A DNA stretch of 64,000 nt from Epilithonimonas xixisoli (GTDB taxonomy: Bacteria > Bacteroidota > Bacteroidia > Flavobacteriales > Weeksellaceae), in the NCBI RefSeq assembly GCF_004365655.1, contig NZ_SOEO01000002.1, positions 682,001-746,000 on the forward strand. Direction: 5' to 3'. Under the pieces are notes generated by a model. That model worked only from the letters and a program-made list of their open reading frames with translations, was not told where the DNA came from and made no database searches. A program made the position numbers and the translations under genes. Of the stretch, positions 15,558 to 57,755 are shown piece after piece. The stretch's first letter is position 1; the number at the start of each line of letters is the position of its first letter.

Positions 15558-15645
15558 TTTTTATAAATGATAATTGATTAGTGATGATTGATTAATGACA
15601 AGCGAAAAAAATCTTTTATCGATTATCATCAATCATTTATTTGAA
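15558..15645. repeat. inverted pair of 7-bp-periodic arrays (ATC family) upstream of thiL
   Basis: On the - strand, just before the thiL ATG, heptads GTCATTA, ATCAATC, ATCACTA, ATCAATT, ATCATTT and ATAAAAA follow in exact 7-bp phase (15558-15599). After an 11-nt spacer, heptads of the same family run on the + strand: ATCTTTT, ATCGATT, ATCATCA, ATCATTT, ATTTGAA (15611-15645). The arms can pair into a long imperfect hairpin. Confidence 0.7.
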
Positions 15646-16131
15646 TATGTCCGGGCTGATATTCTCCGGTCGGAAAGGTAACGTTTTCAAAAAATCTCTT
15701 GTGATGATATTCACATTTTCAGATTTGAATTCATTCATTACCAAGATGATGTCTTCTGGTGGCGTAGTGATTTTCCTTAGCATGATATCAATCCAAACTC
15801 CGGTCGCTTCTGCCGTTGCACAATGCGTTCCGTCTGGAAGATAAAACTTGTGAACAAACTGATAGATAGAACCGTCTTCCGAAATCGAAGCGACTTCCAA
15901 ACCGACATAAACCGTCTGATCTGCATATATTTCTCTAAAAAAAGAATATTTCTCGTGCATCATCACGGGACCAACGCCCCAACGGTTGAGTTGCGTCAAA
16001 CCGATTTTGTTTTTGTTGAGAAAAGCCATTCTCGTTTGCGAGCAATAGTCAACATAAGTGGAATTCCCCAAATGACGGTTGGCGTCGATATCGCTCCATC
16101 TTACTTCAAATTTATGATAATATACAGACAT
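15637..16131 (-). CDS. acyl-CoA thioesterase, hotdog fold (4HBT family)
   Basis: 164 residues from the ATG at 16131; a longer reading to 16227 adds an unconserved, hydrophobic leader. The N-terminal FEVRWSDIDANRHLGNSTY carries the 4HBT catalytic pattern (Asp, then His, then N-S-T-Y). Such YbgC/FadM-like enzymes hydrolyse acyl-CoA or acyl-ACP thioesters in the cytoplasm. The exact substrate is not predictable. Its stop lies within the outer arm of the heptad repeat upstream of thiL. Confidence 0.88.
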   Translation of the reverse strand: MSVYYHKFEVRWSDIDANRHLGNSTYVDYCSQTRMAFLNKNKIGLTQLNRWGVGPVMMHEKYSFFREIYADQTVYVGLEVASISEDGSIYQFVHKFYLPDGTHCATAEATGVWIDIMLRKITTPPEDIILVMNEFKSENVNIITRDFLKTLPFRPENISPDIFK

Positions 16132-16186
16132 TTTTAGATTTTTAAGATTCTTCAAAATTAACCATTTGAGGTGGATTTTAAAAATG

Positions 16187-16194
16187 TAATTTTG
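16187..16194 (+). promoter_or_regulatory. -7 promoter element (TAATTTTG)
   Basis: Exact TAnnTTTG match, 59 bp before the ATG of the flavoprotein gene and divergent from the thioesterase gene. Confidence 0.4.
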
Positions 16195-16253
16195 TGCATC
16201 GAATACAAAGTAACAAAGGCGAGACATATTTGTTACTGCAGAAAATTAGATTA

Positions 16254-17465
16254 ATGTCAAAAAAGAAAAGAATAATCATCATAGGTGGAGGAGCAGCTGG
16301 TTTTTTCACAGCGGCAAATCTTGATGAGAACAAATATTACGTCACGATTCTTGAACAAAACGGCGATGTTTTGCAGAAGGTGAAAATCTCTGGTGGCGGA
16401 CGATGCAATGTGACGCACGCTTGTTTTGACCCAAGAGATTTGGTTCAGTTTTATCCAAGAGGAAACCGAGAATTACTTAGTGTTTTCACAAAGTTTCAGC
16501 CAGGCGACACGATGGATTGGTTCGAAACCAGAAATGTTCCTTTGAAGATTGAAAAAGACAATCGGGTTTTCCCGACCACAGATTCTTCGCAAAGCATCAT
16601 CAATGCAATGATAGATGAAGTTCGGAATAAAAAATTCGAGGTCAAAACTCAGGTTTCGGTTTCGGAAATCATTAAACAAGACGATGAATATTTAATCAAA
16701 ACAAAACAAGGTGATTTTGTTGCTGACATTGTGATTTATACGACAGGAAGTTCTCCAAAGTCACTGAAAATTATTGAAAATCTTGGACATAAAATAATTG
16801 AGCCTGTTCCGTCGTTGTTTACTTTTAATATCAAAGATGATTTGTTGAAAGATATTCCGGGAACTAGTTTTGCCAATGCAGAAATCCAAATTCCAAGTTT
16901 GAAGACCGAAGAATCAGGTCCACTTCTCATCACACATTGGGGACTTTCCGGACCTGCAGTTTTGAAAATTTCAGCTTGGGAAGCGAGAAAATTGGCGCAA
17001 TTGAAATATCAATTTGAGATTGAAGTTAATTTTATCTCAACACCAATTTCGGAAGTTGAAAAGCAGTTCAAAGATTTCAAAAACAGCAATCCGAAAAGAA
17101 CCGTTGGACAATCGAAAATATTTGATGTGACCAATCGTTTTTGGAACAAGATTTTGGAAGTTTGCAAAATAGACCCGGAAAAACAGATCGCAAATCTTTC
17201 TGGCAAAGAAATGAATCATATCTTTGAGTATCTTTGTCAAAAAAAATTGAGAGTGTCGGGAAAATCGACTTTCAAGGATGAGTTTGTGACAGCTGGAGGT
17301 GTAGATTTGAAAGAAATTAATTTTAAAAATATGACTTCCAAGATTCTTCCGAATTTTTACCTTGCTGGCGAAGTTCTTGATATAGATGCAGTTACCGGCG
17401 GATTTAATTTTCAGGCTTGCTGGAGTGAAGCTTGGCTTATCTCTCAAGATATTAATACAAAATAA
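16254..17465 (+). CDS. HI0933/YhiN-family NAD(P)/FAD-dependent oxidoreductase
   Basis: 403 residues from the ATG at 16254, chosen because the FAD-binding Rossmann motif IIIIGGGAAGFFTA follows directly; a GTG at 16194 would add 20 unconserved residues. The family hallmark KISGGGRCNVTH is present near residue 45, as are HWGLSGPAVLKIS and the C-terminal LAGEVLDIDAVTGGFNFQ that closes the FAD site. The physiological substrate of YhiN/BaiN flavoproteins is largely unknown; BaiN members in gut bacteria act on bile-acid intermediates. Confidence 0.93.
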   Translation: MSKKKRIIIIGGGAAGFFTAANLDENKYYVTILEQNGDVLQKVKISGGGRCNVTHACFDPRDLVQFYPRGNRELLSVFTKFQPGDTMDWFETRNVPLKIEKDNRVFPTTDSSQSIINAMIDEVRNKKFEVKTQVSVSEIIKQDDEYLIKTKQGDFVADIVIYTTGSSPKSLKIIENLGHKIIEPVPSLFTFNIKDDLLKDIPGTSFANAEIQIPSLKTEESGPLLITHWGLSGPAVLKISAWEARKLAQLKYQFEIEVNFISTPISEVEKQFKDFKNSNPKRTVGQSKIFDVTNRFWNKILEVCKIDPEKQIANLSGKEMNHIFEYLCQKKLRVSGKSTFKDEFVTAGGVDLKEINFKNMTSKILPNFYLAGEVLDIDAVTGGFNFQACWSEAWLISQDINTK

Positions 17466-17478
17466 GGGTTTATTTTAA

Positions 17479-17486
17479 TAACTTTG
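17479..17486 (+). promoter_or_regulatory. -7 promoter element (TAACTTTG)
   Basis: Exact TAnnTTTG match, 28 bp before the ATG of the lipoprotein gene at 17515. Confidence 0.45.
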
Positions 17487-17514
17487 AATCAATAATTAAT
17501 TATTTTAAAATATA

Positions 17515-17841
17515 ATGAAATTTTCTAAAAAAATTATTTGGGTATTTGCAATTTTGATGTTGGCGGTGTCTTGCCAAACTAGAGTTGTCTCTCCTACAAA
17601 ACCACTTTACGACAACAAGTTGGATCTTTATAAAAAATATACAGTTCAAACCAATGATGCGAAAGTTTACAAAGTAGAAATTGTAAAAATAGACGCTACA
17701 AAAATCTACGGAAAATCGAAAACCGGTGAAATGGTAGAAATTGAAAAAAGCAATGTGCGGGAAATCAAAAAACCAGATATTTTATCATCTATAATCATTG
17801 GTTTGGCTGCGGTTGCTGCGGTTGTTTTTATTCCGATTTAA
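17515..17841 (+). CDS. small lipoprotein, unknown function
   Basis: 108 residues. The signal ends LAVSC (lipid-bearing Cys20). The mature part holds a short beta-rich segment (KVYKVEIVKIDATKIYGKS, then EMVEIEKSNVREIKK) and a C-terminal hydrophobic helix (SSIIIGLAAVAAVVFIPI). The same order of lipobox, KxYKxE strands, isoleucine/lysine-rich strands and terminal helix is seen in the lipoprotein at 22.8 kb. It has its own promoter element and overlaps the convergent DUF2809 gene by 14 bp. Confidence 0.65.
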   Translation: MKFSKKIIWVFAILMLAVSCQTRVVSPTKPLYDNKLDLYKKYTVQTNDAKVYKVEIVKIDATKIYGKSKTGEMVEIEKSNVREIKKPDILSSIIIGLAAVAAVVFIPI

Positions 17842-18208
17842 TTTTTGTGAGTAAAAATAAAATCACACATCCAGCAAAGTAACACAGAATATCAATCCAG
17901 CTGAATGAGTTGCCGAGGACAATCATCATCAATCGGTTGTCTTTGAAACCAAGCAGTTCTGCAAAATGGAAATATTGTGCAAACTCAATAAGGCAGGAGA
18001 AAATAAAGATTCCAACAATCAATTTTGTTGAATTGATTTCAATGAATGCTTTGATGAAGTAATACATCAGCATAACCACGAAAACATCGCCCAGATAAGC
18101 TCTCACGAAAAACCAATCTTTGAGTTTCGTAGCGATGAGAACTTCTACCAAGAAAATGGCGACAGCAATGAGAAAGTTTTTCAGATTGAATTTAAAATTA
18201 ATTTTCAC
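17828..18208 (-). CDS. DUF2809 family membrane protein
   Basis: 126 residues with four predicted membrane helices. Conserved DUF2809 features are visible: WFFVRAYLGDVFVV (RAYLGD), CLIEFAQYF, LLGFKDNRLMMIVLGNSFSWIDILCYFAG read in parts as NRLMMIVLGNSFSW and DILCYFAG. The function of the family is unknown. The gene overlaps the convergent lipoprotein gene at its 3' end and lies 55 bp downstream of the thioredoxin-family gene, behind a terminator. Confidence 0.85.
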   Translation of the reverse strand: MKINFKFNLKNFLIAVAIFLVEVLIATKLKDWFFVRAYLGDVFVVMLMYYFIKAFIEINSTKLIVGIFIFSCLIEFAQYFHFAELLGFKDNRLMMIVLGNSFSWIDILCYFAGCVILFLLTKIKSE

Positions 18209-18231
18209 AGCAATAGTTTATAAAACATAAC

Positions 18232-18265
18232 AAAAAATCGAGGCAATTATTACCTCGATTTTTTT
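18232..18265 (-). terminator. Rho-independent terminator after the thioredoxin-family gene
   Basis: A 12-bp stem (AAAAAATCGAGG / CCTCGATTTTTT) with a 9-nt loop starts at the stop codon of the gene at 18264 and ends in a T run on the - strand. Confidence 0.8.
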
Positions 18266-18887
18266 ATTTTTTCACTTTGATCGTACACCCAATGGCGACG
18301 GTTTTCTCCGTTTTTACCGCTTCATTTTTCAATAATTGATTTACCGCATCTTGCACGTAAAATTCGGAAACGTCTTTTGGATTTTCGTAATTATTGTCGA
18401 TAGCGCCAATGTATTTCACGATGTTTTTTCCATTTTCTTTTTTCAGAATGTAAACGTGAGGCGTTTTCGTAGCACCATAAATTGGGTAGATTTTCTGACC
18501 TTCGTCCACCAAATAGGGGAAGGTAAAACTTTTTTCCTTCGCTCTCGTCTGCATTTCTGCAAATCCATCTTGAGGTTGTACAGTTGCGTCGTTCGGGTTG
18601 ATGGCAATCACCGGATAGCCTTTGCTTTTGAACATTTTGTCGAGCGCAACGATTCTGTCCTCGTACTTTTTCGCATACGGACAATGGTTGCAAGTGAAAA
18701 TCACAATAAAGCCTTTTGCAGATTTGTAATCGCTGAGAGAAACCATTTTTCCGTCGATGTTTTTCAGTTTGAAATCTGTCGCTTCGTCGCCAACTTGATA
18801 TCCGGAATTGATGTTTTTAATGGATGAAAAGCTTAATAATCCGAGGATTAATATTAATCCAAACGAAAGCCATTTTATTTTTTTCAT
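18264..18887 (-). CDS. secreted redoxin / thioredoxin-fold protein
   Basis: 207 residues with an N-terminal membrane anchor or signal (first 25 residues). The redoxin core begins GDEATDFKLKNIDGK and contains FTCNHCPYAKKYEDRI, where the CNHC pair is the redox motif of a distinct AhpC/TSA-like group with CxxC-P-Y-A. TPHVYILKK provides the cis-proline. It probably acts in the periplasm in thiol redox reactions. The C terminus carries one further Cys (AIGCTIKVKK). It follows a TlpA-like gene on the same strand. Confidence 0.85.
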   Translation of the reverse strand: MKKIKWLSFGLILILGLLSFSSIKNINSGYQVGDEATDFKLKNIDGKMVSLSDYKSAKGFIVIFTCNHCPYAKKYEDRIVALDKMFKSKGYPVIAINPNDATVQPQDGFAEMQTRAKEKSFTFPYLVDEGQKIYPIYGATKTPHVYILKKENGKNIVKYIGAIDNNYENPKDVSEFYVQDAVNQLLKNEAVKTEKTVAIGCTIKVKK

Positions 18888-18918
18888 AATATTTTATTTT
18901 GATGATTTAATTAATTTT

Positions 18919-18953
18919 AAAAGCCAATAACTAAAAGCCATTAGCCATAAGCT
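18919..18953 (-). repeat. 7-bp-periodic array (GGCTnnT family)
   Basis: On the - strand the heptads AGCTTAT, GGCTAAT, GGCTTTT, AGTTATT and GGCTTTT follow in exact phase. The array starts at the stop codon of the TlpA-like gene and ends 31 nt before the ATG of the redoxin gene. Confidence 0.65.
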
Positions 18954-19440
18954 ATTTATAATTTTTTTCGATAGCAGTTTTCAATTCTTGAAGTGACATT
19001 TCTCCATTTTTGAAGAACACTTTTTCTCCATTTTTATAGAATAATGTGACTGGAATCTCGCCTTCCCAATCTTTTTGAAATCTCGGAATCCAAGTGTTCA
19101 TCCGCTTGACATCATCCAAAATCACAACTTCTGCGTTCAGATTTTTTGTTTTGATAAAATTAAGAACTTTCTGTTTGTCTCTCGCCATATCAAGTGAAAC
19201 CAACAGCATTTTGAAATCCGGATTTTGGGAATATTCTTTGTTGACTTCGATGAAATGAGGTAGTTCCTTCACACAAGGCGCACAAGTGGTCGCCCAAAAA
19301 TTGACTACAACAAACTTGTCTTTTGATTGTTGGAGATGTTTTTCGAGATCTTCATATTTGATTAATGAAACCTCGCTTTGAACTTGCGCATTCATTGTCA
19401 AAGGAAAAACGAGCAAAAGGAATTTTATTAAAATCTTCAT
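18952..19440 (-). CDS. TlpA-like thiol-disulfide oxidoreductase
   Basis: 162 residues from the ATG at 19440; a TTG two codons upstream is less likely. A signal peptide (MKILIKFLLLVFPLTMNAQ) precedes a thioredoxin fold with VVVNFWATTCAPCVKELPHF, the CAPC redox motif, and a later EIPVTLFYKNGEKVFF with the cis-proline. Such proteins reduce periplasmic disulfides, for example in cytochrome maturation. The -7 element lies only three bases before the ATG, so the message may be leaderless. Confidence 0.88.
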   Translation of the reverse strand: MKILIKFLLLVFPLTMNAQVQSEVSLIKYEDLEKHLQQSKDKFVVVNFWATTCAPCVKELPHFIEVNKEYSQNPDFKMLLVSLDMARDKQKVLNFIKTKNLNAEVVILDDVKRMNTWIPRFQKDWEGEIPVTLFYKNGEKVFFKNGEMSLQELKTAIEKNYK

Positions 19441-19443
19441 ATT

Positions 19444-19464
19444 CAAATTTAAAAAATAACTTTG
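19444..19464. promoter_or_regulatory. two divergent -7 elements back to back
   Basis: TAAATTTG on the - strand (19451-19444) ends three bases before the TlpA-like ATG. TAACTTTG on the + strand (19457-19464) serves the TonB-C-like gene. The two elements are separated by only 5 bp, so the promoters must overlap. Confidence 0.5.
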
Positions 19465-19510
19465 ACACTTGAATTAATTTCTGTTAATGAATATCTTTGA
19501 AAAAATAACT

Positions 19511-19885
19511 ATGAAAAATTTAATCTTATTTTGTTTTCTATTATTAGGAGGTTTTGTTTTCTCTCAAACAAAAGATTCAATAATTTCGACCGAAGCCCGA
19601 GCAGAATATCAAGGAGGGGACGAGCAGTTCAAAAAAGATATTATGAAAAAGTTTAGAATTAGAAAAGTTCACGGAAAGGGTACTTTTGTCACAAATGTGA
19701 GGTTCATAGTTGAGAGAGACGGTATGGTTTCCAATATCAAAGCAAAAGGTGAGAATGAGAGTTTCAATAAAGAAGCAATGCGCGCTGTTTCAAAAATGAA
19801 ACCCAAATGGAAAGCGGGAATGATAAATGGTGAAAACGTTAGATGTTACTTCACAGTTCCGCTGACAGCAAATTTTAGCGATTAA
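19511..19885 (+). CDS. secreted TonB-C-terminal-like protein
   Basis: 124 residues from the ATG at 19511, which opens a signal peptide (MKNLILFCFLLLGGFVFSQ); an ATG eight codons earlier is possible. The rest resembles the TonB C-terminal fold found in Bacteroidota: ARAEYQGGDEQFKKDIMKKF, then VRFIVERDGMVSNIKAKG and AMRAVSKMKPKWKAGMING. It lacks the membrane anchor and proline-rich spacer of true energy transducers, so it is probably a periplasmic protein of related fold with unknown partner. Confidence 0.75.
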   Translation: MKNLILFCFLLLGGFVFSQTKDSIISTEARAEYQGGDEQFKKDIMKKFRIRKVHGKGTFVTNVRFIVERDGMVSNIKAKGENESFNKEAMRAVSKMKPKWKAGMINGENVRCYFTVPLTANFSD

Positions 19886-19937
19886 TAAAATTTCGGTTCA
19901 ATTTTTGAAAATAAAATCACAACCAAATCTTATTATT

Positions 19938-20123: not shown

Positions 20124-20125
20124 AA

Positions 20126-22836: not shown

Positions 22837-22840
22837 GCTA

Positions 22841-24938: not shown

Positions 24939-24960
24939 AATAATATCGAATTGATTTTAA

Positions 24961-24993
24961 TCTAATATCTAAAGTCTAACTTCTAATCTCTCC
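24961..24993 (+). repeat. 7-bp-periodic array (TCTAAnn family) before thioredoxin
   Basis: TCTAATA, TCTAAAG, TCTAACT, TCTAATC follow in exact 7-bp phase, then TCTCC; the thioredoxin ATG is at 24999. The same word in the same sense orientation precedes sufS. Confidence 0.7.
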
Positions 24994-24998
24994 AAAAA

Positions 24999-25301
24999 AT
25001 GTCACAAAAATTTCAAGAACTCATCCAATCCGAACGTCCAGTTCTCATTGATTTTTTTGCAACTTGGTGTCAGCCGTGCAAAGTGCAATCTTCTGTTTTG
25101 AATACGGTAAAAGAAAAAGTTGGCGAAAAAGCCAGAATCGTAAAAATTGACATCGACCAATGTCCGTCAATCGCTAATCAATATAATGTGCGAGGTGTTC
25201 CGACTTTAGCAGTTTTCAAAAATGGTGAAATGCTTTGGAAAGAAAGCGGTGTTCATGATGTGAATTCTTTGGTGGGTTTGCTGGAGCAGTATTCTAATTA
25301 A
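24999..25301 (+). CDS. thioredoxin
   Basis: 100 residues, a minimal cytoplasmic thioredoxin without signal peptide. The active site ATWCQPCKVQ has Cys24 and Cys27 with Gln in place of the usual Gly of WCGPC. The buried-acid/Asp region LIDFF and the cis-proline in RGVPTLAVF are present. It follows the MBL-rhodanese fusion by 60 bp on the same strand and could reduce the persulfide or disulfide products of that enzyme. Confidence 0.93.
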   Translation: MSQKFQELIQSERPVLIDFFATWCQPCKVQSSVLNTVKEKVGEKARIVKIDIDQCPSIANQYNVRGVPTLAVFKNGEMLWKESGVHDVNSLVGLLEQYSN

Positions 25302-27308: not shown

Positions 27309-27315
27309 TTTTATT

Positions 27316-27343
27316 GTACAATGTAAAAAGTACAATGTAATAT
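27316..27343 (+). repeat. 7-bp-periodic array (GTAnAAn family)
   Basis: GTACAAT, GTAAAAA, GTACAAT, GTAATAT follow in exact phase between the L,D-transpeptidase stop and the terminator. Confidence 0.6.
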
Positions 27344-27352
27344 GAGAAACAA

Positions 27353-27405: not shown

Positions 27406-28095
27406 TTAAGGATTTTTCACCAACAAACGGAAACCTTCTCCGTGTACGTTGATGATTTCCAAACCTTCGTCATCTTTCAAGAGTTTTCTCAATTTTGCGA
27501 TGTAAACGTCCATACTTCTTGCAGTGAAATAATTCTCTTTTTTCCAGATTTTTCTAAGCGCCAAATCTCTCGGCATAAAGTCGTTTCTGTGAATGCAAAG
27601 CAATTTAAGAAGTTCGTTTTCTTTTGGAGACAATTTGTATTCGTTATCACCAACTCTCAGTTGTCTCAACATAGAATCGAAGAAAATATTACTGATTTTG
27701 AACTGCTCTTGGTCTTCGTTTTCCAACACAGCACTTCTTTGTAGGATTGCTTTGATTTTGTATAAAAGTAACTCAGTATCAAATGGTTTTGTGATATAAT
27801 CATCTGCACCCAATTGATAACCTTTCAAGATGTCTTCACGCATATTTCTTGCGGTCAAAAAGATGATTGGGGTATTTTTATCAATTTTCTTTACATCTTC
27901 TGCTAATGAAAATCCGTCTTTTTTCGGCATCATTACATCGAAAATGCAGATGTCAAATTCTTTTTCTGTAAACTCTTTCAGTCCCATTTCTCCGTCGGTT
28001 GCCAAAGTAACCTCGAAGTTGTTTATTGTCAAATAATCTTTGAGAACTGCACCAAAACTTTGGTCGTCTTCTACTAATAATATTCTGTTGCTCAT
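27406..28095 (-). CDS. OmpR/PhoB-type response regulator (RprY-like)
   Basis: 229 residues. The receiver domain has the acidic pocket VEDD, phospho-acceptor Asp53 (ICIFDVMMPKKDG), Thr82 and Lys103 (DDYITKPFD). The C-terminal winged helix shows LSPKENELLKLLC and RSMDVYIAKLRKLL. It forms a two-component system with the kinase encoded upstream, an arrangement like Bacteroides RprXY, which responds to envelope or oxidative stress; equivalence is inferred. The 94-bp gap to the kinase gene holds a 70-bp heptad hairpin. Confidence 0.93.
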   Translation of the reverse strand: MSNRILLVEDDQSFGAVLKDYLTINNFEVTLATDGEMGLKEFTEKEFDICIFDVMMPKKDGFSLAEDVKKIDKNTPIIFLTARNMREDILKGYQLGADDYITKPFDTELLLYKIKAILQRSAVLENEDQEQFKISNIFFDSMLRQLRVGDNEYKLSPKENELLKLLCIHRNDFMPRDLALRKIWKKENYFTARSMDVYIAKLRKLLKDDEGLEIINVHGEGFRLLVKNP

Positions 28096-28114
28096 AACTT
28101 TATGATTGATGTTT

Positions 28115-28184
28115 AATTAATAATTGATTAGAGATAAATGGTAATTGATTTTCGGAATCGTTTATCAACCATCATTTATCATTT
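28115..28184. repeat. 70-bp inverted heptad array between kinase and regulator genes
   Basis: Five heptads on the - strand (ATCAATT, ACCATTT, ATCTCTA, ATCAATT, ATTAATT; 28115-28149), a 7-nt spacer, and four heptads on the + strand (ATCGTTT, ATCAACC, ATCATTT, ATCATTT; 28157-28184) stay in one 7-bp phase. The arms are complementary enough to form a hairpin inside the two-gene transcript. Confidence 0.7.
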
Positions 28185-28189
28185 ATATT

Positions 28190-29731
28190 TTAAGCCATAG
28201 GTAATTTTATCGTAAACGTACTTCCCTTTCCTTTATGAGAATCTACGGAAATTTGACCTTTATGGATTTCAATAATTTTCTTCACATAAGACAATCCAAG
28301 ACCTTGCCCTTTTACATTGTGGATATTTCCCGTTTCCTCTCGGAAGAATTTTTCAAAAATTTTGGTTTTATTTGTAGCATCCATTCCCATTCCTTTGTCG
28401 GAAATTTCGATGACGTAGAAATTCGCTTCATTTCTTGTGCTCACTTTTATTTCCGGTGTTTCCGGCGAATATTTGTTGGCATTATCAAGAAGATTGATTA
28501 ATGCATTCGAGATGTGAAATTCATCAACCAAGAAATTATATTTTGTAGCGTTGAAATCTGTAATCAAGGTTCCATTTCGCTCATCCACAATCAGTCGGAA
28601 AGATTCTGCAACATTCTTTATCAATTGTCTTACGTTCGTTTCTTTCAAATGAAGTGGCATTTCGTTTCGTTCCAGTTTGGACATATTCAGAACGGTTTCC
28701 ACCTGTTTTTTCATTCGGATGTTTTCCTGTTTTATCAATCCAGAGTAATATTTTACCTTGTCCGGATTTGTAGCAATCAGGTCGTTTGCCAAAGAATCTG
28801 TAGCAACGGAAATGGTTGCCAAAGGCGTTTTGAATTCGTGCGACATATTATTGATGAAATCCGTTTTGATTTCCGCAATTTTCTTCTGACGCATCATATA
28901 ATTAATGGAAATAATATAAATTCCAAGAATCGTCAATAATGAAATGAAAGTTCCCAAAAGCATCGGCAAATTGTGCTTCACCAACGAGTAATCTTTCCTC
29001 GGGAAGACGATGGCGAGCGTGTAAAGCGTTCTGTCTTTGCTGTCTGTAAAAAGCGGATAAGTATAATTCGTTTTGTCTTTTTGATCCAGATAAATATTGT
29101 TGGCAACCGAGGTTAAATTATTGGTTTTATTAATAACGCCAAAGCCGAATTTTGTATCAATGCCTTTCAACCTCAATTCTTTAGCAATCACAGAATCAAT
29201 GATTTTGCTGTCCACTCTCTTTTCGATGGGAAGATTCGTTGCGCTCAGTCTCGCAAATTCTTTCATCTGATAAGAATTATTATCGATGTCTCGGCTGATG
29301 TTGGTGGTCAAAGGTTCCGGCGAACTTCTTTTCAGTTTCAGTTGACCTTCATCTTTGTAAAGTTTAGTCGTGTACAAAGTGTCTCCTTTTGCCGAAACCG
29401 GAATATTCTGTTTCTCCACAATGCTGGTTTGAAACAAAATATTGGAGCGGTTTGCAGAATCCGAACTTTGTTGGATATAAGTTTTAACAGGCTGATTTGC
29501 AGATGCTAAAACTTCTTTTCCTACACCGCCATAAGTTTCGTTCCAATATTTATTAACTTCAATTTGGTTGACTTTCTGAGTAGATGTTTCCAAGGCAGAA
29601 TAGACTTTGTTAGAAAAATCCTGCTCCAGCGAAGTGTATAATTCTTTAATCCAATACAACTGCAAAGAAACGAAGACAACCAATGAGATTGTCATAAAGA
29701 CAGAGATAATTGGAATGAATTTGTTGTTCAT
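28190..29731 (-). CDS. sensor histidine kinase (RprX-like)
   Basis: 513 residues. A first membrane helix (about 6-27), a roughly 230-residue periplasmic sensor region without a recognised domain, and a second helix (about 257-278) precede the HisKA domain with phospho-acceptor His298 (INNMSHEFKTPLATIS). The ATPase domain follows with NLLDNANKYSPE (N box), ISDKGMGMD (G1), FEKFFR (F box) and GQGLGLSYVKKI (G2). There is no HAMP linker between TM2 and HisKA. It is first gene of the operon and phosphorylates the downstream regulator. Confidence 0.93.
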   Translation of the reverse strand: MNNKFIPIISVFMTISLVVFVSLQLYWIKELYTSLEQDFSNKVYSALETSTQKVNQIEVNKYWNETYGGVGKEVLASANQPVKTYIQQSSDSANRSNILFQTSIVEKQNIPVSAKGDTLYTTKLYKDEGQLKLKRSSPEPLTTNISRDIDNNSYQMKEFARLSATNLPIEKRVDSKIIDSVIAKELRLKGIDTKFGFGVINKTNNLTSVANNIYLDQKDKTNYTYPLFTDSKDRTLYTLAIVFPRKDYSLVKHNLPMLLGTFISLLTILGIYIISINYMMRQKKIAEIKTDFINNMSHEFKTPLATISVATDSLANDLIATNPDKVKYYSGLIKQENIRMKKQVETVLNMSKLERNEMPLHLKETNVRQLIKNVAESFRLIVDERNGTLITDFNATKYNFLVDEFHISNALINLLDNANKYSPETPEIKVSTRNEANFYVIEISDKGMGMDATNKTKIFEKFFREETGNIHNVKGQGLGLSYVKKIIEIHKGQISVDSHKGKGSTFTIKLPMA

Positions 29732-37366: not shown

Positions 37367-37402
37367 AAGATACAAGAGAAAAGTAAAAAGAATCAAGAGA
37401 AA

Positions 37403-37437
37403 ATCAATTATCAATCATCATTTATCAATTATAACTC
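37403..37437 (+). repeat. 7-bp-periodic array (ATCA family) before the LptF/G gene
   Basis: ATCAATT, ATCAATC, ATCATTT, ATCAATT, ATAACTC follow in exact phase and end one base before the ATG at 37439. Further upstream, AAAGATACAAGAGAA and AAAGAATCAAGAGAA recur 21 bp apart. Confidence 0.65.
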
Positions 37438-37438: not shown

Positions 37439-38533
37439 ATGAAAATCATAGACCTTTACGTCATCAAAAAATATTTGGGAACCCTCATTTTTATGTTGGC
37501 ACTTTTGTCTATCATCATTATGGTTGTGGATGTTCAGGCAAAAACGCCGAGGATTGAGAGCAACGGATTTACAGTTGGCTATTTCCTGCTTAATTTTTAT
37601 CCGTTTTGGATTCTGAATCTGATTCTGACCTTTATGTCGATTCTGGTTTTCATCACAGTGATTTTCTTCACTTCGAGAATGGCGAATAACACAGAGATTG
37701 TTGCAATCATCAGCAGTGGTGCGAGTTTTCACAGGTTTGCGAGGCCCTATTTAGTCACATCGGTTTTGATATTTATAATGACTTTGGCGGTGAATCACTT
37801 CATTTTGCCTTGGTCCAACATCAAGAAAAACATCCTCGAACCTTACACTTACAACAGTATGAATCGGGAGAAACTTCTTGGAAATATGAGCATCGCTTCG
37901 AATATCAGCCCGACGGATTATATTTTTGTCAACAGCTACAACAAGAAAGAAAACCGCGGAACTGGCTATATGTATCAGAAATTTGATAAAAACAAAAAGC
38001 TTATTTATCAAATCTCGGCGATGGACATCCAATGGGAAGCGAAGAAAAAACATTTCGTCATTAATAATTATACAGAACGGACGGCGAGTAAAAATGATAC
38101 CGAAATTCTTGGAAGCGGAACAACGAAGATTCAAGATTTCAAGTTGCCACCTTCAGAATTATTTCCTGATAAATTGGTGGCTCAAAACAAAACTACACCC
38201 GAACTTCTGACGATGATAGAACGGGAAAAAATGAAAGGAAACAACAACGTAACTTCCTTTTACAATGAGCTTTATCAAAGAACCTCAATGCCTGTTTCTA
38301 TTATTATTTTGACATTTCTCGGACTGTCATTATCATCACAGAAAAAACGTGGTGGATTGGGACTTAACCTCGCATTAGGAATTGCTTTGGCGTTCTTATT
38401 CGTATTTTCTTTCCAAGTTTTGAATGTGGTTTCCGAAAACAAAACCTTGACACCACTTTTGGCAATGTGGCTTCCGAACATCGTTTTTGCTCCAATTGCA
38501 GCTTATCTTTATATCAAAAGAGCGAATCAGTAA
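37439..38533 (+). CDS. LptF/LptG-family lipopolysaccharide export permease
   Basis: 364 residues: an N-terminal membrane block (IIDLYVIKKYLGTLIFML and two more helices), a periplasmic beta-rich domain (about 100-260) and three C-terminal helices. The YjgP/YjgQ pattern is clear in NNTEIVAIISSGASFHRF and PVSIIILTFLGLSLS. As part of the LptBFG ABC transporter it would pull LPS from the inner membrane. Whether it is F or G cannot be settled, and its partner is not in the window. The start follows a heptad array. Confidence 0.92.
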   Translation: MKIIDLYVIKKYLGTLIFMLALLSIIIMVVDVQAKTPRIESNGFTVGYFLLNFYPFWILNLILTFMSILVFITVIFFTSRMANNTEIVAIISSGASFHRFARPYLVTSVLIFIMTLAVNHFILPWSNIKKNILEPYTYNSMNREKLLGNMSIASNISPTDYIFVNSYNKKENRGTGYMYQKFDKNKKLIYQISAMDIQWEAKKKHFVINNYTERTASKNDTEILGSGTTKIQDFKLPPSELFPDKLVAQNKTTPELLTMIEREKMKGNNNVTSFYNELYQRTSMPVSIIILTFLGLSLSSQKKRGGLGLNLALGIALAFLFVFSFQVLNVVSENKTLTPLLAMWLPNIVFAPIAAYLYIKRANQ

Positions 38534-48431: not shown

Positions 48432-49652
48432 TTAAACCAACATTCTTTGCGCTTTCTTGACGCCTTCCACCAGAATATCAATTTCTTCCAAAGTATTATA
48501 AATTGCAAAACTTGCGCGAACAGTTCCGGCTATGTTGAAGAAGTCCATAATCGGTTGTGTACAATGATGTCCGGTTCTCACAGCGATTCCCAATTTGTCG
48601 AGAATCATTCCTGTGTCAGAAGCAATTCCTGCGCCTTCCAGGTTGAAAGAAACTACGCCAGTTCTATTGGCTTTTTCGCCATAGATTTTGATGCCTTCCA
48701 ATTCCAGAAGTTTTTTCTGAGCGTAATTCAGAAGGTCATTTTCGTGGTTTTGAAGATTTTCGTGACCGATGTTTTCAATGAAATCTACAGCCGAGCCAAT
48801 CGCAATATTTCCGCCAACATTTGGTGTTCCAGCTTCAAATTTGAAAGGTAAACCTGCGTAAGTTGTTTTCTCGAAACTGCAAACGGCAATCATTTCACCA
48901 CCGCCGTGGAAAGGATGAAGATTTTCGAGTACGGATTCTTTCCCGTAAAGAATTCCAGTTCCCATTGGTGCGTACATTTTATGTCCTGAGAAGACAAAGA
49001 AATCACAATCCAGTTTTTGAACATCGATTTTGAAGTGTGGTGCGGATTGTGCGCCGTCAATCAAAACGTAAGCGTTGGAAAGTCTTCTTGTTTTTTCGAT
49101 GATTTCCTCGATGGGATTGATGATTCCCAAAGCGTTAGAAACTTGATTTACGGAAACGATCTTTGTTTTTTCGTTCAGCCATTCGTCCAAAACATCGATT
49201 TGGAGGATTCCGTTTTCGTCCATTGGGATGACGCGGAGTTTTGCGCCGGTTCTTTCGCATAGCATCTGCCAAGGAACGATGTTGGAATGATGCTCCAAGT
49301 AAGAAATGATGATCTCGTCGTTTGGTTTGATCTGATTGGTCAAAGCGTAAGCCACGAGATTGATTCCTTCCGTCGTTCCTTTGGTGAATATGACTTCGTA
49401 GTCGTATTTTGCATTGATGAAACGTTGGATCTTCTGTCTGGAAAGTTCCATTTCTTCTGTTGCTAATTGACTTAAAGTATGGATGCCACGATGAACATTG
49501 GCGTTGATGGTTTCATAATATTGTTCCCAAGTTTTGATAACTGAAATCGGTTTTTGGGAAGTTGCAGCGTTGTCCAGATAAACTAATGGTTTGCCGTTGA
49601 CTTCTTGATTCAGAATTGGGAATTGGGCTCTTATATGATTGATGTCGAACAT
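48432..49652 (-). CDS. sufS: cysteine desulfurase, SufS type
   Basis: 406 residues, group II. The PLP lysine is Lys225 (FVFSGHKMYAPMGTG) and the persulfide-bearing Cys364 lies in VRTGHHCTQPIMDF, the RxGxHC form of SufS. DNAATSQKP near residue 28 and LEHHSNIVPWQ near 120 are typical. It supplies sulfur for iron-sulfur clusters. The other suf genes are not in the window, so the operon ends or is split here. A TCTAAnn heptad array lies just before the ATG. Confidence 0.95.
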   Translation of the reverse strand: MFDINHIRAQFPILNQEVNGKPLVYLDNAATSQKPISVIKTWEQYYETINANVHRGIHTLSQLATEEMELSRQKIQRFINAKYDYEVIFTKGTTEGINLVAYALTNQIKPNDEIIISYLEHHSNIVPWQMLCERTGAKLRVIPMDENGILQIDVLDEWLNEKTKIVSVNQVSNALGIINPIEEIIEKTRRLSNAYVLIDGAQSAPHFKIDVQKLDCDFFVFSGHKMYAPMGTGILYGKESVLENLHPFHGGGEMIAVCSFEKTTYAGLPFKFEAGTPNVGGNIAIGSAVDFIENIGHENLQNHENDLLNYAQKKLLELEGIKIYGEKANRTGVVSFNLEGAGIASDTGMILDKLGIAVRTGHHCTQPIMDFFNIAGTVRASFAIYNTLEEIDILVEGVKKAQRMLV

Positions 49653-49656: not shown

Positions 49657-49684
49657 AATTAGATGTTAGAATTTAGATGTTAGA
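49657..49684 (-). repeat. 7-bp-periodic array (TCTAAnn family) before sufS
   Basis: On the - strand TCTAACA, TCTAAAT, TCTAACA, TCTAATT run in exact phase and end four bases before the sufS ATG. On the + strand this appears as two exact 14-bp copies (49659-49686). It is the same word and orientation as before thioredoxin. Confidence 0.72.
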
Positions 49685-49735
49685 ATTTAAACCAATTGGA
49701 AAATTCTTAAAAATATGATTAAACGTTGAATCTTT

Positions 49736-49963: not shown

Positions 49964-49997
49964 AACAATTGATTTATTAACAAATAAATACCAAACT

Positions 49998-50594: not shown

Positions 50595-50616
50595 TTTTTC
50601 ATAGAATTATATTGAG

Positions 50617-50649
50617 AAACCCATCAGAACTTATCTGATGGGTTTTTTT
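50617..50649 (+). terminator. Rho-independent terminator after sodA
   Basis: A perfect 12-bp stem AAACCCATCAGA / TCTGATGGGTTT with a 5-nt loop and a run of seven T, 22 bp after the stop. It touches the stop of the convergent lipoprotein gene. Confidence 0.88.
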
Positions 50650-50998: not shown

Positions 50999-51009
50999 TT
51001 TAATTAATT

Positions 51010-52740: not shown

Positions 52741-52743
52741 AAT

Positions 52744-54504: not shown

Positions 54505-54617
54505 TTCTACGATTGAACTTGTAAAAATAAGGATAACAATCGAGTGGTAAAAGTTAAATAATTATAAAGAACTTGGGAAAATAATGATATTTTTGAATTT
54601 CAGTTTATTAAGTACTC

Positions 54618-54756
54618 AACACAAAGACACAAAGAATTTGGTAATCAATCATTCTGTTTTAAGGCACAAAGATTTAACGTTGTTAAATTTCAAAATCTTT
54701 GATTTTCTTGTGCCTTAAAACATTGTCTATAAAAATAGTTTTTGTGCCTTTGTGTT
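54618..54756. repeat. nested palindromic element with 8-bp words, mutL-acyltransferase intergenic region
   Basis: Outer arms AACACAAAGACACAAA (54618-54633) and TTTGTGCCTTTGTGTT (54741-54756) match but for one base. Inner arms TTTTAAGGCACAA (54657-54669) and TTGTGCCTTAAAA (54708-54720) are perfect and continue into AAAGATTT / AAATCTTT. The outer arms consist of 8-bp words (ACACAAAG twice). Confidence 0.75.
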
Positions 54757-54781
54757 TAATCATATTTTAAAACCATCATCG

Positions 54782-55879
54782 ATGCAAAGAGATCTCTATA
54801 TTGATTTTGCCAAAGGACTGGCGACCATTTCCATTATTTTTATTCACACGGCTTTCTGGAGCGGGCAATTTTACATTCCGACGGAAGCTCGGGTTTTTTC
54901 TTTGGTTTTTGATGTCGCTTTGTTTTATGCGCTCAGCGGAATCACTTCGGGGAATAATATCGAAAAAACACTTTACAGATTGCTGAAGTTGCAAATCACG
55001 TTTATGATTTTTGTGACATTTTTATTTTTCCTCGATTACTTTTTCAAGGTCTATGGGCTCACATTTTTTTCTGTTGAATGGCTGAAGGATTTCTATTCCA
55101 CATTCGGGAGCAAATATGTTCCGAATAGCATTTCATCAGAACCACAATGGCAGGTTTTGGGAAATTGGTACTTGCACGAGTATTCGAATTGTGATACATT
55201 CCCTGTGGTGATGGGAAGTTTCTGGTATTTGAAAGTTTATTATATTTTGACGGTTCTTGGTGTTTTGATTTTAAAATTCTTTCCAAAACATATCAATTGG
55301 TTTATAGGGATTTGTGTTGTTTTAACTTTGATTTTCAATATTTTTCCTCAATATTATCCGAATGGACAAGGTGGTTACGTTGCATTTTATATGGCAGTTT
55401 TTCTGATTGCCAACAGAATGAAAGGTAAAAAAATCACAACTAAAATGATTCCCGTTTTGTACGGATTGGTCGCAGTTGCGCTGGCTTGGATGTTCTGGAA
55501 TTACGGAGGCGACATCTTCTATAAACTTAATAAACAAAAATTCCCACCGAAGATTCCTTATATTATTTGGACATTATTCTCATTGGTAACGCTTTTCGTT
55601 TTCTACAACCGATTGAAAATCACGAAACCAAATTTCATTACAAACGTTGGGCAAAATGCGATCTTCTTTTATTTCGCCCAAGGAATGAGTTCATCATTAA
55701 TATATTTCCTAGTTGTGCCTTTAAAAGATTCGATGAGTTGGTGGTTGTTGGTTTTGATAATTTATCCGCTCAATATTTTCTTGGCTTATTTGATTTCTAT
55801 TGGTTTGAAGAAAGTAGATGATTTAGGTTGGAAAGTTTTGGAGTTTTTGAGAGAGAAAACCGCTGAGAAGAATCCATAA
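54782..55879 (+). CDS. acyltransferase family membrane protein
   Basis: 365 residues from the ATG at 54782; an ATG ten codons upstream lies within the repeat element. About ten membrane helices are seen. The start YIDFAKGLATISIIFIHTAF has the RxxDxxKGxxxxxVxxxH pattern of acyltransferase-3 proteins (DFAKG and His). Such enzymes O-acetylate surface sugars or lipids. The central hydrophilic segment (VEWLKDFYSTFG to NCDTFP) is outside the membrane. The acceptor is unknown, and no polysaccharide genes flank it. Confidence 0.85.
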   Translation: MQRDLYIDFAKGLATISIIFIHTAFWSGQFYIPTEARVFSLVFDVALFYALSGITSGNNIEKTLYRLLKLQITFMIFVTFLFFLDYFFKVYGLTFFSVEWLKDFYSTFGSKYVPNSISSEPQWQVLGNWYLHEYSNCDTFPVVMGSFWYLKVYYILTVLGVLILKFFPKHINWFIGICVVLTLIFNIFPQYYPNGQGGYVAFYMAVFLIANRMKGKKITTKMIPVLYGLVAVALAWMFWNYGGDIFYKLNKQKFPPKIPYIIWTLFSLVTLFVFYNRLKITKPNFITNVGQNAIFFYFAQGMSSSLIYFLVVPLKDSMSWWLLVLIIYPLNIFLAYLISIGLKKVDDLGWKVLEFLREKTAEKNP

Positions 55880-55902
55880 AAAAAGCGCTCCTAAAAGCGC
55901 TC
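55877..55902 (-). terminator. terminator after the small secreted protein gene
   Basis: AGCGCT, six bases, AGCGCT and then TTTTTTT on the - strand, 10 bp after the stop at 55913. It overlaps the end of the convergent acyltransferase gene. Confidence 0.65.
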
Positions 55903-55912
55903 TGTAATTTCT

Positions 55913-56146
55913 CTAATCATTTTTCTTTCTTCCGCTCATCGCAACAATTGCAACGATAATTATTAGAACAACGCCTCCGATAATCCAGTAAGTCGGATTG
56001 GTTTGCCATTCTTCCGTAGAAGTGGTTGTCACGTTGGTGGTTTTAACAATTGTTGAATCTTGCGCAAAAGATAAAGCAGAGGAAAAAACTGACAAAAAGC
56101 TAAACAGAAATAATTTAGCACGATTGATAATGCTTGAAATTTTCAT
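55913..56146 (-). CDS. small secreted protein with C-terminal membrane anchor
   Basis: 77 residues from the ATG at 56146, chosen because a signal peptide (LFLFSFLSVFSSALSFAQ) follows; a longer reading to 56191 adds unlikely residues. The short mature segment (DSTIVKTTNVTTTSTEEWQ) is Thr/Ser-rich, and a C-terminal helix (WIIGGVVLIIIVAIVAM) ends in basic residues SGRKKND. Function unknown. Confidence 0.6.
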   Translation of the reverse strand: MKISSIINRAKLFLFSFLSVFSSALSFAQDSTIVKTTNVTTTSTEEWQTNPTYWIIGGVVLIIIVAIVAMSGRKKND

Positions 56147-56308
56147 AATTTTATGGTTTGGTTGTTGAAAGATTTTCAATATGTGTGCCAATTGTTAATT
56201 TAATTAATTATTTTAATCCTTTCTCTTAATTGATTTCGAAAATTAATTTTAGTCGATAAAATATTTAATAGCAAACAATCAAATCCTTATTTTTACAAAA
56301 AATATAAA

Positions 56309-56890
56309 ATGTTCCGTCTCAAACTTCTTACAGACCCTCGTTGGGCAAACATCGCCGAAGATAATCTTGAAGAAATCCTAACAGATCACGCTTGGTGTGA
56401 GCAAAAAGCAGCAACCAACGCCATCGGATTGATTACAATGGTTCCTGAACATACAGAAATGGTCACCGAACTTTTGGCAATTGCTCAGGAAGAATTGGAT
56501 CATTTCAGCCAAGTTCACGAGATTATCAAGAAAAGAGGTGGTGTTTTAGGAAGAACGCGTAAAGATGATTATGTGAATGACCTCATCAAATTCCTCGTAA
56601 AAGGCGGACATCGTGATGAGCAAATCATCGACAAAATGCTTTTCGCAGCGATGATCGAGGCTAGAAGTTGCGAACGTTTCAAAGTTTTGACAGAGAATAT
56701 CAAAGACGAAGAATTGAAGAAATTCTACCACGACCTGATGGTTTCCGAAGCCAATCATTATACCACATTCATCGGGTTTGCAAGACAATTGGGCGATCCG
56801 GAAAAAGTGAACAAACGTTGGGAAGAATGGCTGGAATATGAAGCTAACATTATGAAATCCTACGGAAACAAAGAAACCATCCACGGATAA
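56309..56890 (+). CDS. miaE: tRNA 2-methylthio-N6-isopentenyladenosine hydroxylase
   Basis: 193 residues of a ferritin-like four-helix fold. The diiron ligands are visible as repeated Glu and ExxH sets: LTDHAWCEQKAATNA, AIAQEELDHFSQVHEI (ExxH), AAMIEARSCERF and MVSEANHYTTF (ExxH). It hydroxylates ms2i6A37 of tRNA with oxygen. The miaA and miaB genes that build its substrate are not in this window. Monocistronic, followed by dispersed repeats. Confidence 0.92.
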   Translation: MFRLKLLTDPRWANIAEDNLEEILTDHAWCEQKAATNAIGLITMVPEHTEMVTELLAIAQEELDHFSQVHEIIKKRGGVLGRTRKDDYVNDLIKFLVKGGHRDEQIIDKMLFAAMIEARSCERFKVLTENIKDEELKKFYHDLMVSEANHYTTFIGFARQLGDPEKVNKRWEEWLEYEANIMKSYGNKETIHG

Positions 56891-56892
56891 AA

Positions 56893-57000
56893 AACACTTC
56901 GACTAAGTTTATATTGAGCGAAGTCGAAATACTCAGCGTGACAAGTATAATTTGAAAAATTTCAATATTAAACGTGTCAGTCTGAGGTTCTCGAAGACTA
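56893..57000. repeat. dispersed repeat pieces including 25-bp repeat copy 2
   Basis: TTCGACT and AGTCGAA (within ACACTTCGACT and GCGAAGTCGAAAT) form an inverted pair near 56900-56930, followed by CAGCGTGACAAG. At 56976-57000 lies the exact 25-bp copy of 26323-26347. These resemble GTCAnnCTGAGCGAAGTCGAAG-type palindromic repeats. Confidence 0.75.
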
Positions 57001-57011
57001 TAAAAATTAAA

Positions 57012-57626
57012 ATGGACAGAAATATCAACGATTATCTACGCCTCTTCATACGATCCTTTATCCAAGGATTGATAATCATTGGGCCTTTTGCCATCACGGT
57101 TTGGGTCATTTGGAGCGTGGTTTTCCGTATCGATAATCTGGTTCCTTCTGTTTCACAAAGATTTCCAGGATTGATGTTCTTCATTGTCATTTTTGGGACT
57201 GCTTTTATCGGTTTTTTTGGCAATAAATTTATCATCGGAAGATTGATTGTTGACGGTGTAGATTACGTTTTGGAACATATTCCCGGAATCAAATTTCTTT
57301 ATACTTCTCTGAAAGACGTTCTCGGATCTTTCGTTGGTGATAAGAAAAAATTCAATGTTCCGGTTTGGGTCAAGACCAATGAAACGCCCGAAATCTGGAG
57401 AATCGGATTTTTGACGCAAACAGATATGTCGGTTGTGGATCTTGACCAAATGATCGCCGTTTATCTGCCGCATTCCTACGCCGTTTCCGGCTGGGTCATC
57501 ATTACTAAATATACGAACGTCAAAGAAGTTACCGGAATGAGTGCTGCCGAAGCAATGAAATTTGCAGTCAGTGGAGGCGTTGCCGGATTCCATTCAGACG
57601 ACAACGTTTTCAAAGCACCGGAGTAG
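57012..57626 (+). CDS. DUF502 membrane protein
   Basis: 204 residues from the ATG at 57012; the in-frame extension to 56952 runs through the repeat and is not credible. Two membrane helices (about 13-38 and 53-75) are followed by the DUF502 core: IPGIKFLYTSLKDVLGSFVGD, IWRIGFLTQTD and VYLPHSYAVSGWVIIT, then AMKFAVSGGVAG. The function is unknown. The next gene, tryptophanase, is 141 bp downstream behind an inverted heptad array. Confidence 0.88.
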   Translation: MDRNINDYLRLFIRSFIQGLIIIGPFAITVWVIWSVVFRIDNLVPSVSQRFPGLMFFIVIFGTAFIGFFGNKFIIGRLIVDGVDYVLEHIPGIKFLYTSLKDVLGSFVGDKKKFNVPVWVKTNETPEIWRIGFLTQTDMSVVDLDQMIAVYLPHSYAVSGWVIITKYTNVKEVTGMSAAEAMKFAVSGGVAGFHSDDNVFKAPE

Positions 57627-57633
57627 TTTTTTG

Positions 57634-57755
57634 TTGGATGTGGGATGTCAGATGATGGAAGTTTTATTTTTCTTTAATCTAGTCCTCACATTAGTGATTA
57701 GTTCAAAAATATTTTAATGATGCGGAACATCCAGCTTCCAGCATCTATCACCCAA
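57634..57755. repeat. inverted heptad arrays in the tnaA leader
   Basis: On the + strand TTGGATG, TGGGATG, TCAGATG, ATGGAAG (57634-57661) run in exact 7-bp phase. After 66 nt the complementary family follows: CATCCAG, CTTCCAG, CATCTAT, CACCCAA (57728-57755), ending 12 bases before the tnaA ATG. The two arrays can pair across the leader. Confidence 0.68.

Follow-up and report, generated by a model that had tools for sequence, protein, structure and literature searches.

Polar, degenerate heptanucleotide arrays at gene edges of Epilithonimonas xixisoli and their possible role as open leaders

Introduction

Tandem heptanucleotides dispersed over the genome are familiar from heterocystous cyanobacteria as short tandemly repeated repetitive (STRR) sequences. 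Here, we describe arrays that are likewise tandem, dispersed and heptanucleotide, and that use different words, in Epilithonimonas xixisoli (family Weeksellaceae). They were noticed in a 64,000-nt stretch of its genome, hereafter the window (positions 682001 to 746000 of contig 2, NZ_SOEO01000002.1, in a genome of 3,389,369 bases and 11 contigs), beside genes such as thiL, trx, sufS and lptF. A preliminary description of the window had named the STRR sequences as the nearest analogue, but two other repeat types are closer. The first comprises direct repeats of TAACTGA in Beggiatoaceae, some Cyanobacteria and five Bacteroidetes, with Elizabethkingia anophelis among the listed species (MacGregor 2015, PMC4679880). 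In the main genome, most of these sets lie within several nucleotides upstream of start codons, in forward orientation, and the genes downstream show no functional pattern; in F. litoralis, 12 of 14 sets are forward before a start, and one set is reverse just past a stop. A role in translation was proposed for them, with S1, Csp and Csr as candidates (PMC4679880). The second type comprises the degenerate heptamers GGGAATC/GGGANTN of Xanthomonas and GGGGA(C/T)T of Nostoc, which are conserved at positions 1 to 4 and 6, mostly have four units, and form inverted pairs (Rehm 2015, PMC4692102). The Xanthomonas heptamers have one side near an open reading frame (ORF), with a mean of 28 nt to the 5′ neighbor and 160 nt to the downstream one; they are capable of forming G-quadruplexes, and in one genome they lie on the same and the opposite strand to ORFs about equally (30% and 35%) (PMC4692102).

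Like the TAACTGA repeats, the arrays described here consist of tandem units of exactly 7 nt that are dispersed over the genome and lie forward, a few nucleotides before starts. Unlike that type, which mainly uses one exact word, they are built from degenerate core-plus-linker units with several cores per genome and a G-poor strand, neighboring units avoid agreement at linker positions, and arrays are retained per locus over the genus. Their cores are ATCA, TCTAA and others rather than exact copies of TAACTGA, for which itself no genome-wide search was made. With the GGGANTN heptamers they share a fixed core with variable positions, inverted pairs and one end near an ORF; they differ in that start codons dominate and in that, by inspection, the ATCANYY and TCTAANN arrays contain no G runs. 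Read on the C-rich strand, the Xanthomonas heptamers would have the same polarity as the arrays here. Published precedent thus exists both for heptamers close to starts (PMC4679880) and for degenerate ones beside a single gene edge (PMC4692102). Four features appear to be new relative to the portions of those two papers that were consulted: degenerate units with multiple cores in this group, a strand rule that holds across words, the linker neighbor avoidance and the per-locus retention. A literature search turned up no description of these arrays for this lineage, although this does not prove that there is none.

The position of the arrays bears on translation initiation. Shine-Dalgarno-independent leaders of Bacteroidetes have A at −3, −6 and −12/−13, and the initiation rate is set by leader structure and upstream A; in F. 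johnsoniae, which belongs to the same phylum and does without Shine-Dalgarno sequences, these features tune initiation and bS1 is the proposed binder (PMC6847099). The term "repeats" occurs 0 times in the main text of that paper.

Results

Period-7 arrays are abundant and genome-wide

Periodicity was scored in 278 intergenic regions (46 kb) of the E. xixisoli genome and in dinucleotide shuffles of them, with a segment threshold of at least 11. There are 24 segments at lag 7 versus a shuffle mean of 1.2, and 19 at lag 14 versus 2.2, while the remaining lags from 4 to 13 give 0 to 6 segments versus 1.2 to 3.4, with lag 8 the next highest (6 versus 2.0). At a threshold of 9, lag 7 has 40 segments versus 6.8, and lag 8 has 18 versus 7.2. 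The preliminary description had fixed this comparison beforehand as the one on which its observation should stand or fall, and the excess is that of period 7. Exact copies agree: at least four copies of a 4-mer at period 7 are found in 22 word matches versus 1 in the shuffle, the rest of the periods between 5 and 15 yield 0 to 3, and the merged matches form 13 arrays at period 7 (12 of them intergenic) and 3 at period 8.

Pattern searches extended the result to the whole genome. Four ATCANNN units with at most two mismatches give 155 + 117 = 272 matches, versus 9 + 6 = 15 for a backwards control, and four TCTAANN units give 48 + 29 = 77 versus 6 + 8 = 14. ATCA cores at a spacing of 8 have 6 + 2 matches, none of them exact, with a higher backwards control (4 + 27); at a spacing of 6 there are 16 + 37 = 53 matches, none with four exact cores (control, 1 + 0), and these are, in our own reading, rich in ATCATC-type runs. 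Because pattern matches overlap, such numbers are not numbers of arrays. The targeted set, which holds only the sites listed by the pattern search plus the window, contains 52 distinct ATCA and 16 distinct TCTAA arrays with at least four exact cores each. The words observed include ATCANYY, TCTAANN, TACATTN, CTTCYRN, CAACNRN, TCAAAYY and CCATCNN. The view that different words share one period therefore stands: period 7 is special, and the words differ among arrays.

At least one exact four-core ATCA match occurs in 180 of 246 genomes of the family, although some genomes also have many matches of the backwards control word. One genome (G061, genus g21) has no ATCA match and 50 + 59 = 109 matches of the backwards word ACTANNN, with ACTAAGA units seen in locus L230, so other words dominate elsewhere in the family. 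A graded 7-nt periodicity of all leaders was considered and rejected: the array-free leaders of E. xixisoli have no lag-7 peak (0.341, 0.346 and 0.349 at lags 6, 7 and 8). We regard it as confirmed that the period-7 arrays are real and genome-wide.

Arrays run with their C-rich strand into genes

Placement was examined in the targeted arrays and in 42 lag-7 segments from random stretches, 19 from E. xixisoli (window included) and 23 from 16 other genomes. The random-stretch segments were oriented by C over G, and those with equal G and C, spacers of >800 nt or unclear neighbors were dropped. Gene starts were taken by a simple script as the first ATG of the longest non-overlapping ORFs, and some of these starts are wrong (e.g., that of tnaA). 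The 3′ end of the C-rich strand lies within 12 nt of a start codon in 23 of the 42 segments (expected 5.1; 0 of 5,000 placements as high). A stop codon stands at the end of 8 segments (expected 4.7, P = 0.07) and at the beginning of 4 (expected 4.8). Only 1 segment has the reverse orientation at a start, beginning there (expected 5.1), and 10 lie away from both kinds of edge (expected 26.5). Among the targeted arrays, 32 of 49 ATCA arrays end within 15 nt of a start (expected 6.2) and 10 of 49 at a stop (expected 7.6), 3 of the 52 being unplaced for want of a clean spacer; of the 16 TCTAA arrays, 9 reach to within 15 nt of a start (expected 2.4) and 7 end at a stop (expected 3.9). The bias of strand and distance relative to start codons, which the preliminary description had read from a few sites, is thus strong. 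The enrichment at stops is weak, but the arrays there are oriented one way: by eye, the seven arrays with their 5′ end at a stop all reach the next start too. On the gene-facing strand the array words are poor in G, with 87 G and 386 C in the 42 segments and 15 segments without any G.

Equal polarity at starts and stops is what a Rho entry checkpoint would most directly predict among the ideas considered. Transcripts entering a gene, sense at its start or antisense at its stop, would meet a C-rich, G-poor unstructured stretch that can load Rho unless a ribosome starts there. We nonetheless consider this explanation improbable, as some words (TACATTN, CAACNRN) lack a pyrimidine-C step in each unit, rut sites exceed the roughly 30 nt that such arrays span, and the literature search turned up no mention of Rho acting in a 7-nt register.

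Sequence-specific DNA-binding proteins whose operators advance in 7-bp steps would account for a fixed core at strict spacing and for direct and inverted arms. The model for this is the omega repressor of plasmid pSM19035, a ribbon-helix-helix protein whose heptads likewise have an ATCA core. Several same-strand spacers of 29, 35, 38, 47 and 49 nt (L133, L137, L017, L026 and L020) are mostly array and leave little room for a promoter, the downstream genes seem by eye to be unrelated housekeeping genes, and several unrelated cores share one geometry in a single genome; operators of this kind are an improbable explanation, on a par with Rho loading. The preliminary description had proposed a shared generating mechanism or a shared reader. 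With several cores following one geometry within a genome, it is unlikely that any one sequence-specific reader accounts for them.

Outside the family, sixty other loci, nearly all from Bacteroidota, contain 19 lag-7 segments versus 2 to 12 for lags 6 and 8 to 13, but only 2 of the 19 stand at starts in the orientation of the rule. Taking these together with the counts from Flavobacteriaceae given in the Discussion, the start rule has support in the bacterium's own family only. In two loci outside the family, L087 (two listed segments) and L106 (six), we also observed heptamer arrays of CTTCGGT/CTTCCGA and ACCTGNA types, mostly away from start codons.

Neighboring units keep the core and differ in the linker

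Each unit consists of a fixed core of 4 to 5 nt and a variable linker of 2 to 3 nt. Across 53 ATCA arrays, A or T predominates at position 5, and T or C at positions 6 and 7. Neighboring ATCA units agree at position 5 in 22 of 114 pairs (expected 50.3), at position 7 in 46 (expected 58.8) and at position 6 in 74 (expected 73.5); neighboring TCTAA units agree at positions 6 and 7 in 5 of 36 pairs each (expected 11.8 and 12.3). The avoidance is stronger without the perfect arrays, which make up 1 of 54 ATCA and 2 of 18 TCTAA arrays (an example is ATCAACT ×6 in L012). With perfect arrays included, whole-linker identity of ATCA neighbors is reduced as well (9 of 114, expected 18.5), and the avoidance at position 7 is reproduced in 18 ATCA arrays of other genomes (8 of 32, expected 14.6). 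Since the linker positions adjoining the core tend to disagree between neighbors, contiguous identity between neighbors stays close to the core. Adjacent units are not near-identical, as units of a slippage repeat would be. An opposite-strand stop codon in every unit was rejected as the common property of the arrays: by inspection it holds for ATCA and TCTAA, and it fails for other words.

These patterns bear on a neutral origin, in which 7-bp duplications arise everywhere, purifying selection spares the copies that do no harm (those in intergenic DNA and, before starts, those with a G-poor sense strand), and the arrays have no function of their own. Among long simple repeats, heptamers were reported to outnumber every other class in most genomes, and polymerase slippage has been proposed as their cause (Mrazek 2007, cited in PMC4679880 and PMC4692102). 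The existence of perfect arrays fits such an origin, and avoidance of start codons and of structure would suffice to explain the orientation at starts. Recent slippage predicts the opposite of the neighbor avoidance, however, as the linker positions adjoining the core agree less often than in shuffles; in addition, cores are kept while linkers vary somewhat beyond uniform decay, one core recurs in about 50 arrays, and position within the spacer is nonrandom. The avoidance may mean that instability removes identical neighbors while something keeps the core.

Loci retain the array character rather than its letters

Leaders upstream of orthologous starts were compared over the genus, with E. xixisoli included and with nine genes chosen for having no array in its genome as controls. 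At least two copies of the same core at period 7 are kept in 10 of 22 leaders of lptF, 13 of 23 of thiL, 11 of 22 of sufS and 12 of 22 of trx, i.e., in 46 of 89 leaders together versus 0 of 192 control leaders, in genomes that are related and hence not independent. Any lag-7 segment scoring at least 8 is found in 55 of 112 leaders at five array loci versus 14 of 192 controls. The core follows the locus, with TCTAA retained at trx and sufS and ATCA at thiL and lptF in about half of the 22 to 23 genomes; species-specific words were therefore rejected as the main pattern, although lptF shows swaps. At trx, the TCTAA units often stay near the ATG where the upstream spacer is different DNA in other species, and at lptF several species have a similar upstream part but an exchanged array word (ATCA, CATC-type or other). 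It is the array character that is retained rather than its letters. The earlier claim that the arrays do not descend from one repeat holds between words and, by the linkers, within ATCA, whose arrays at about 50 sites differ in linkers; an individual array, on the other hand, is inherited with its locus.

Indels of 7 nt are enriched in array leaders, with 22 of 95 indels of at least 3 nt versus 14 of 251 in controls (Fisher P = 1e−5, the indel keys not being fully independent), and relatives differ in length by whole units, as slippage repeats do. Such indels, and the finding that array leaders evolve no slower than control leaders, speak for a neutral origin; retention of the same core at four of the five array loci speaks against it.

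Some of these spacers hold other sequences. Variants of ttcgagagcctcagcctgacaa stand between the upstream stop and TCTAA in the trx spacers of G087, G119, G144, G123, G037 and G054, and, by eye, in L007 too. Upstream of sufS, five genomes whose species lack the TCTAA array (G132, G141, G008, G054 and G138) have in common a hairpin-like CCCCTCC...GGAGGGG sequence.

Array leaders are open

Array leaders differ from others in G: the G-free run has a median of 40 nt in 42 ATCA or TCTAA array leaders versus 7 nt in 261 others, a difference that is partly built in because the cores are G-free by choice of word. Start-like codons number 0.24 per 45 nt in array leaders versus 1.50 in others, and 4.29 when the array is reverse-complemented in silico. 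The unpaired probability at −30 to −1 is 0.682 versus 0.536 (P = 2e−8), and 0.437 with the array reverse-complemented. Because the absence of G from the cores is a matter of definition, and G is scarce in leaders in any case, this openness shows compatibility with initiation, not function.

Arrays and genes of the window

The preliminary description had listed eight coordinate pairs as seven sites, and period-7 units are visible at all of them when the sequence is laid out in sevens. Six of them exceed the lag-7 threshold; those at 18919-18953 and 57634-57755 are absent from the threshold list, and the latter was judged by eye. Six of the eight lie in sense before an ATG (thiL, trx, sufS, the response regulator, lptF and tnaA), while those at 18919 and 27316 stand at stop codons.

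Two of the start-proximal arrays carry TCTAANN with four exact cores. One (24960-24991, forward strand) has its final core 12 nt before the start of a thioredoxin-like gene, trx (24999-25301, forward; PF00085, 84.1 bits; TIGR01068, 94.9 bits, just under the cutoff of 96.8), and the other (49659-49689, reverse strand) has it 6 nt before the start of a class-V aminotransferase gene that was earlier named sufS (48432-49652, reverse; PF00266). The spacer at 37367-37432 (forward) is entirely of period 7, with AAGNNNN units after the tgt stop followed by ATCANYY units (37403-37432) that end 6 nt before the start of a gene for an LptF/LptG permease (37439-38533, forward; TIGR04408, 147.6 bits, under the cutoff of 240), the last exact ATCA being 11 nt before it.

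Three further sites are inverted pairs, as first described and as confirmed by eye (at 15558, 28115 and 57634). At thiL, encoding thiamine-phosphate kinase (14502-15557, reverse; TIGR01379, 316.9 bits), an ATCANYY array with 4 exact cores and flanking units (15563-15598, reverse) has its final exact core 10 nt before the start; its partner arm (15607-15645, forward) adjoins the stop of the upstream thioesterase gene (15637-15639) and extends a few bases into that gene, and the spacer has an RNA fold z score of −4.1. A degenerate ATCA array (28099-28147, reverse) ends 3 nt before the start of an RprY-like response regulator gene (27406-28095, reverse; PF00072 and PF00486; NF051850, 297.4 bits, under the cutoff of 370), with the partner arm (28157-28190, forward) at the stop codon of a histidine kinase gene. 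The nearest named record listed for this regulator, in a list that may omit very close ones, is from Chryseobacterium sediminis, with 97% protein identity; the surrounding alignable DNA is 68 to 76% identical. The third pair has a GGATG-type left arm (57634-57661, reverse), beginning 7 nt past a stop codon that ends at 57626, and a CATCCAG-type right arm (57725-57755, forward), ending 12 nt before the likely start (57768, MKLPYAEP...) of a tnaA-like beta-eliminating lyase gene (57768-59144, forward; PF01212). The longest ORF starts at 57717, 51 nt too early (57717-57767), because the array leaves the frame open.

The remaining two sites are at stops. A GCC/GCT-type array of AAAAGCC units (18919-18953, forward), 31 nt away from the redoxin ATG, has its C-rich strand entering the stop of the gene at 18952-19446. 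A TACATTN-type array (27315-27344, reverse) has its C-rich strand ending 6 to 7 nt from the stop of a YkuD gene, with convergent genes on either side.

Such palindromes raise the possibility that the arrays are arms of intergenic hairpins (terminators or palindromes like repetitive extragenic palindromic sequences), with single arrays as relics after the loss of one arm. Arms near both gene edges are found at thiL, the regulator and tnaA in the window, and also in L018, L021 and L135. However, among spacers of 25 to 200 nt, the median fold z score is −1.01 in co-directional array spacers (n = 46) versus −1.46 in others (n = 135), and −4.17 in convergent array spacers (n = 7) versus −4.90 in others (n = 38). 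In some spacers (L163, L148 and L154) the array is unpaired after a separate hairpin, and L141 has, by eye, different words at its two edges. As array spacers show no excess structure over other spacers, hairpins were rejected as the common cause in spite of the palindromes that exist, and we rate this explanation very unlikely, slightly below operators and Rho loading.

In the sampled E. xixisoli DNA (L111 to L130 and the window, 464 kb), we also noticed a dispersed intergenic element with CCGTTCAAGTCGGGCTGC and TTTCCGCCTTCCACTCCC/AATCTTTTT parts at 6 to 7 places. Sequence resembling it is seen by eye in five array spacers (L001, L010, L028, L131 and L147).

Discussion

We tentatively propose, at somewhat less than an even chance, that heptamer duplications in E. 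xixisoli are kept as open leaders for Shine-Dalgarno-independent initiation, and we favor this reading ahead of a neutral origin, which is a serious contender and nearly as likely. Units would arise and be lost by 7-bp duplication or deletion. Beside a start codon, only the G-poor orientation would survive, because the other strand would bring ATG, GTG and TTG codons and pairing before the start. A surviving array might then serve as an open leader for initiation by ribosomes that dispense with Shine-Dalgarno pairing. The most speculative step is that a protein with only a weak preference for sequence may bind the single-stranded RNA step by step, and that this is what the 7-nt register and the kept core reflect; ribosomal protein bS1, a cold-shock protein or an RRM protein would be candidates.

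RbpB of Bacteroides favors AU-rich sequences and single-stranded regions (PMC11697453). For a Thermotoga cold-shock protein, the minimum site is apparently seven nucleotides, and two proteins per heptanucleotide were also found (PMC7704496). By analogy, the 7-nt register could stem from a small RNA-binding domain. In the E. xixisoli genome, CSD is matched twice and RRM once. Among 14 control genomes, RRM matches occur in Synechococcus and Bacteroides only, lineages near those of the heptamer reports, which is a lead and not a test.

Several observations weigh against a role as open leaders. Identity at −35 to −1 is 0.68 to 0.78 for the five array genes and 0.69 to 0.92 for the nine controls, with a shuffled baseline of 0.59 to 0.66; as array leaders are no more conserved than controls, selection on the array itself is not demonstrated. 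Of 23 genomes, only 1 has two period-7 ATCA cores in the regulator leader. Leaders are G-poor in general (G 0.104, C 0.131), so the orientation at starts is in part a baseline property. Only about 6% of leaders (16 of 260) carry an array and some 94% carry none, and the genes downstream are by eye a mixture of housekeeping functions in which no regulon was found. The architectural signals have their limits: with perfect arrays included, whole-linker identity of TCTAA neighbors is not reduced (5 of 36, expected 4.4), the position-5 avoidance is not reproduced in the 18 ATCA arrays of other genomes (13 of 32, expected 14.0), and uniform decay of perfect arrays, which phase-specific conservation over all words disfavors, is disfavored only modestly (102.1 versus 86.6 under uniform decay, standard deviation 5.3; 1 of 150 simulations as high). 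In 19 loci of Flavobacteriaceae there are 5 lag-7 segments (3 and 2 at lags 6 and 8), of which 3 stand at starts but face the opposite way and the other 2 stand at stops. Finally, 17 of the 65 targeted arrays end at stop codons. These arrays, about a quarter of the total, share the polarity of the others, yet initiation on open leaders leaves them unexplained.

A broader generalization, which we consider rather unlikely, is that polar heptamer arrays form a general, unrecognized class of leader and gene-edge elements in Bacteroidota, Beggiatoaceae, Xanthomonas and cyanobacteria. In each genome, a protein of the bS1, cold-shock or RRM type that binds single-stranded RNA would read a few cores in a 7-nt register and recruit ribosomes independently of Shine-Dalgarno pairing. 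The rule that the C-rich strand runs into the gene would be common to all.

Whatever their origin, arrays such as that before tnaA may mislead automatic start calling. They suggest one geometric rule that would unite the scattered reports from Beggiatoaceae, Xanthomonas and Nostoc. The lptF leader, which carries ATCA, CATC-type or other sequence depending on the species, offers natural allele swaps at one gene. For the question of how ribosomes of Bacteroidota locate starts without Shine-Dalgarno pairing, the arrays mark a defined set of leaders with a regular architecture.

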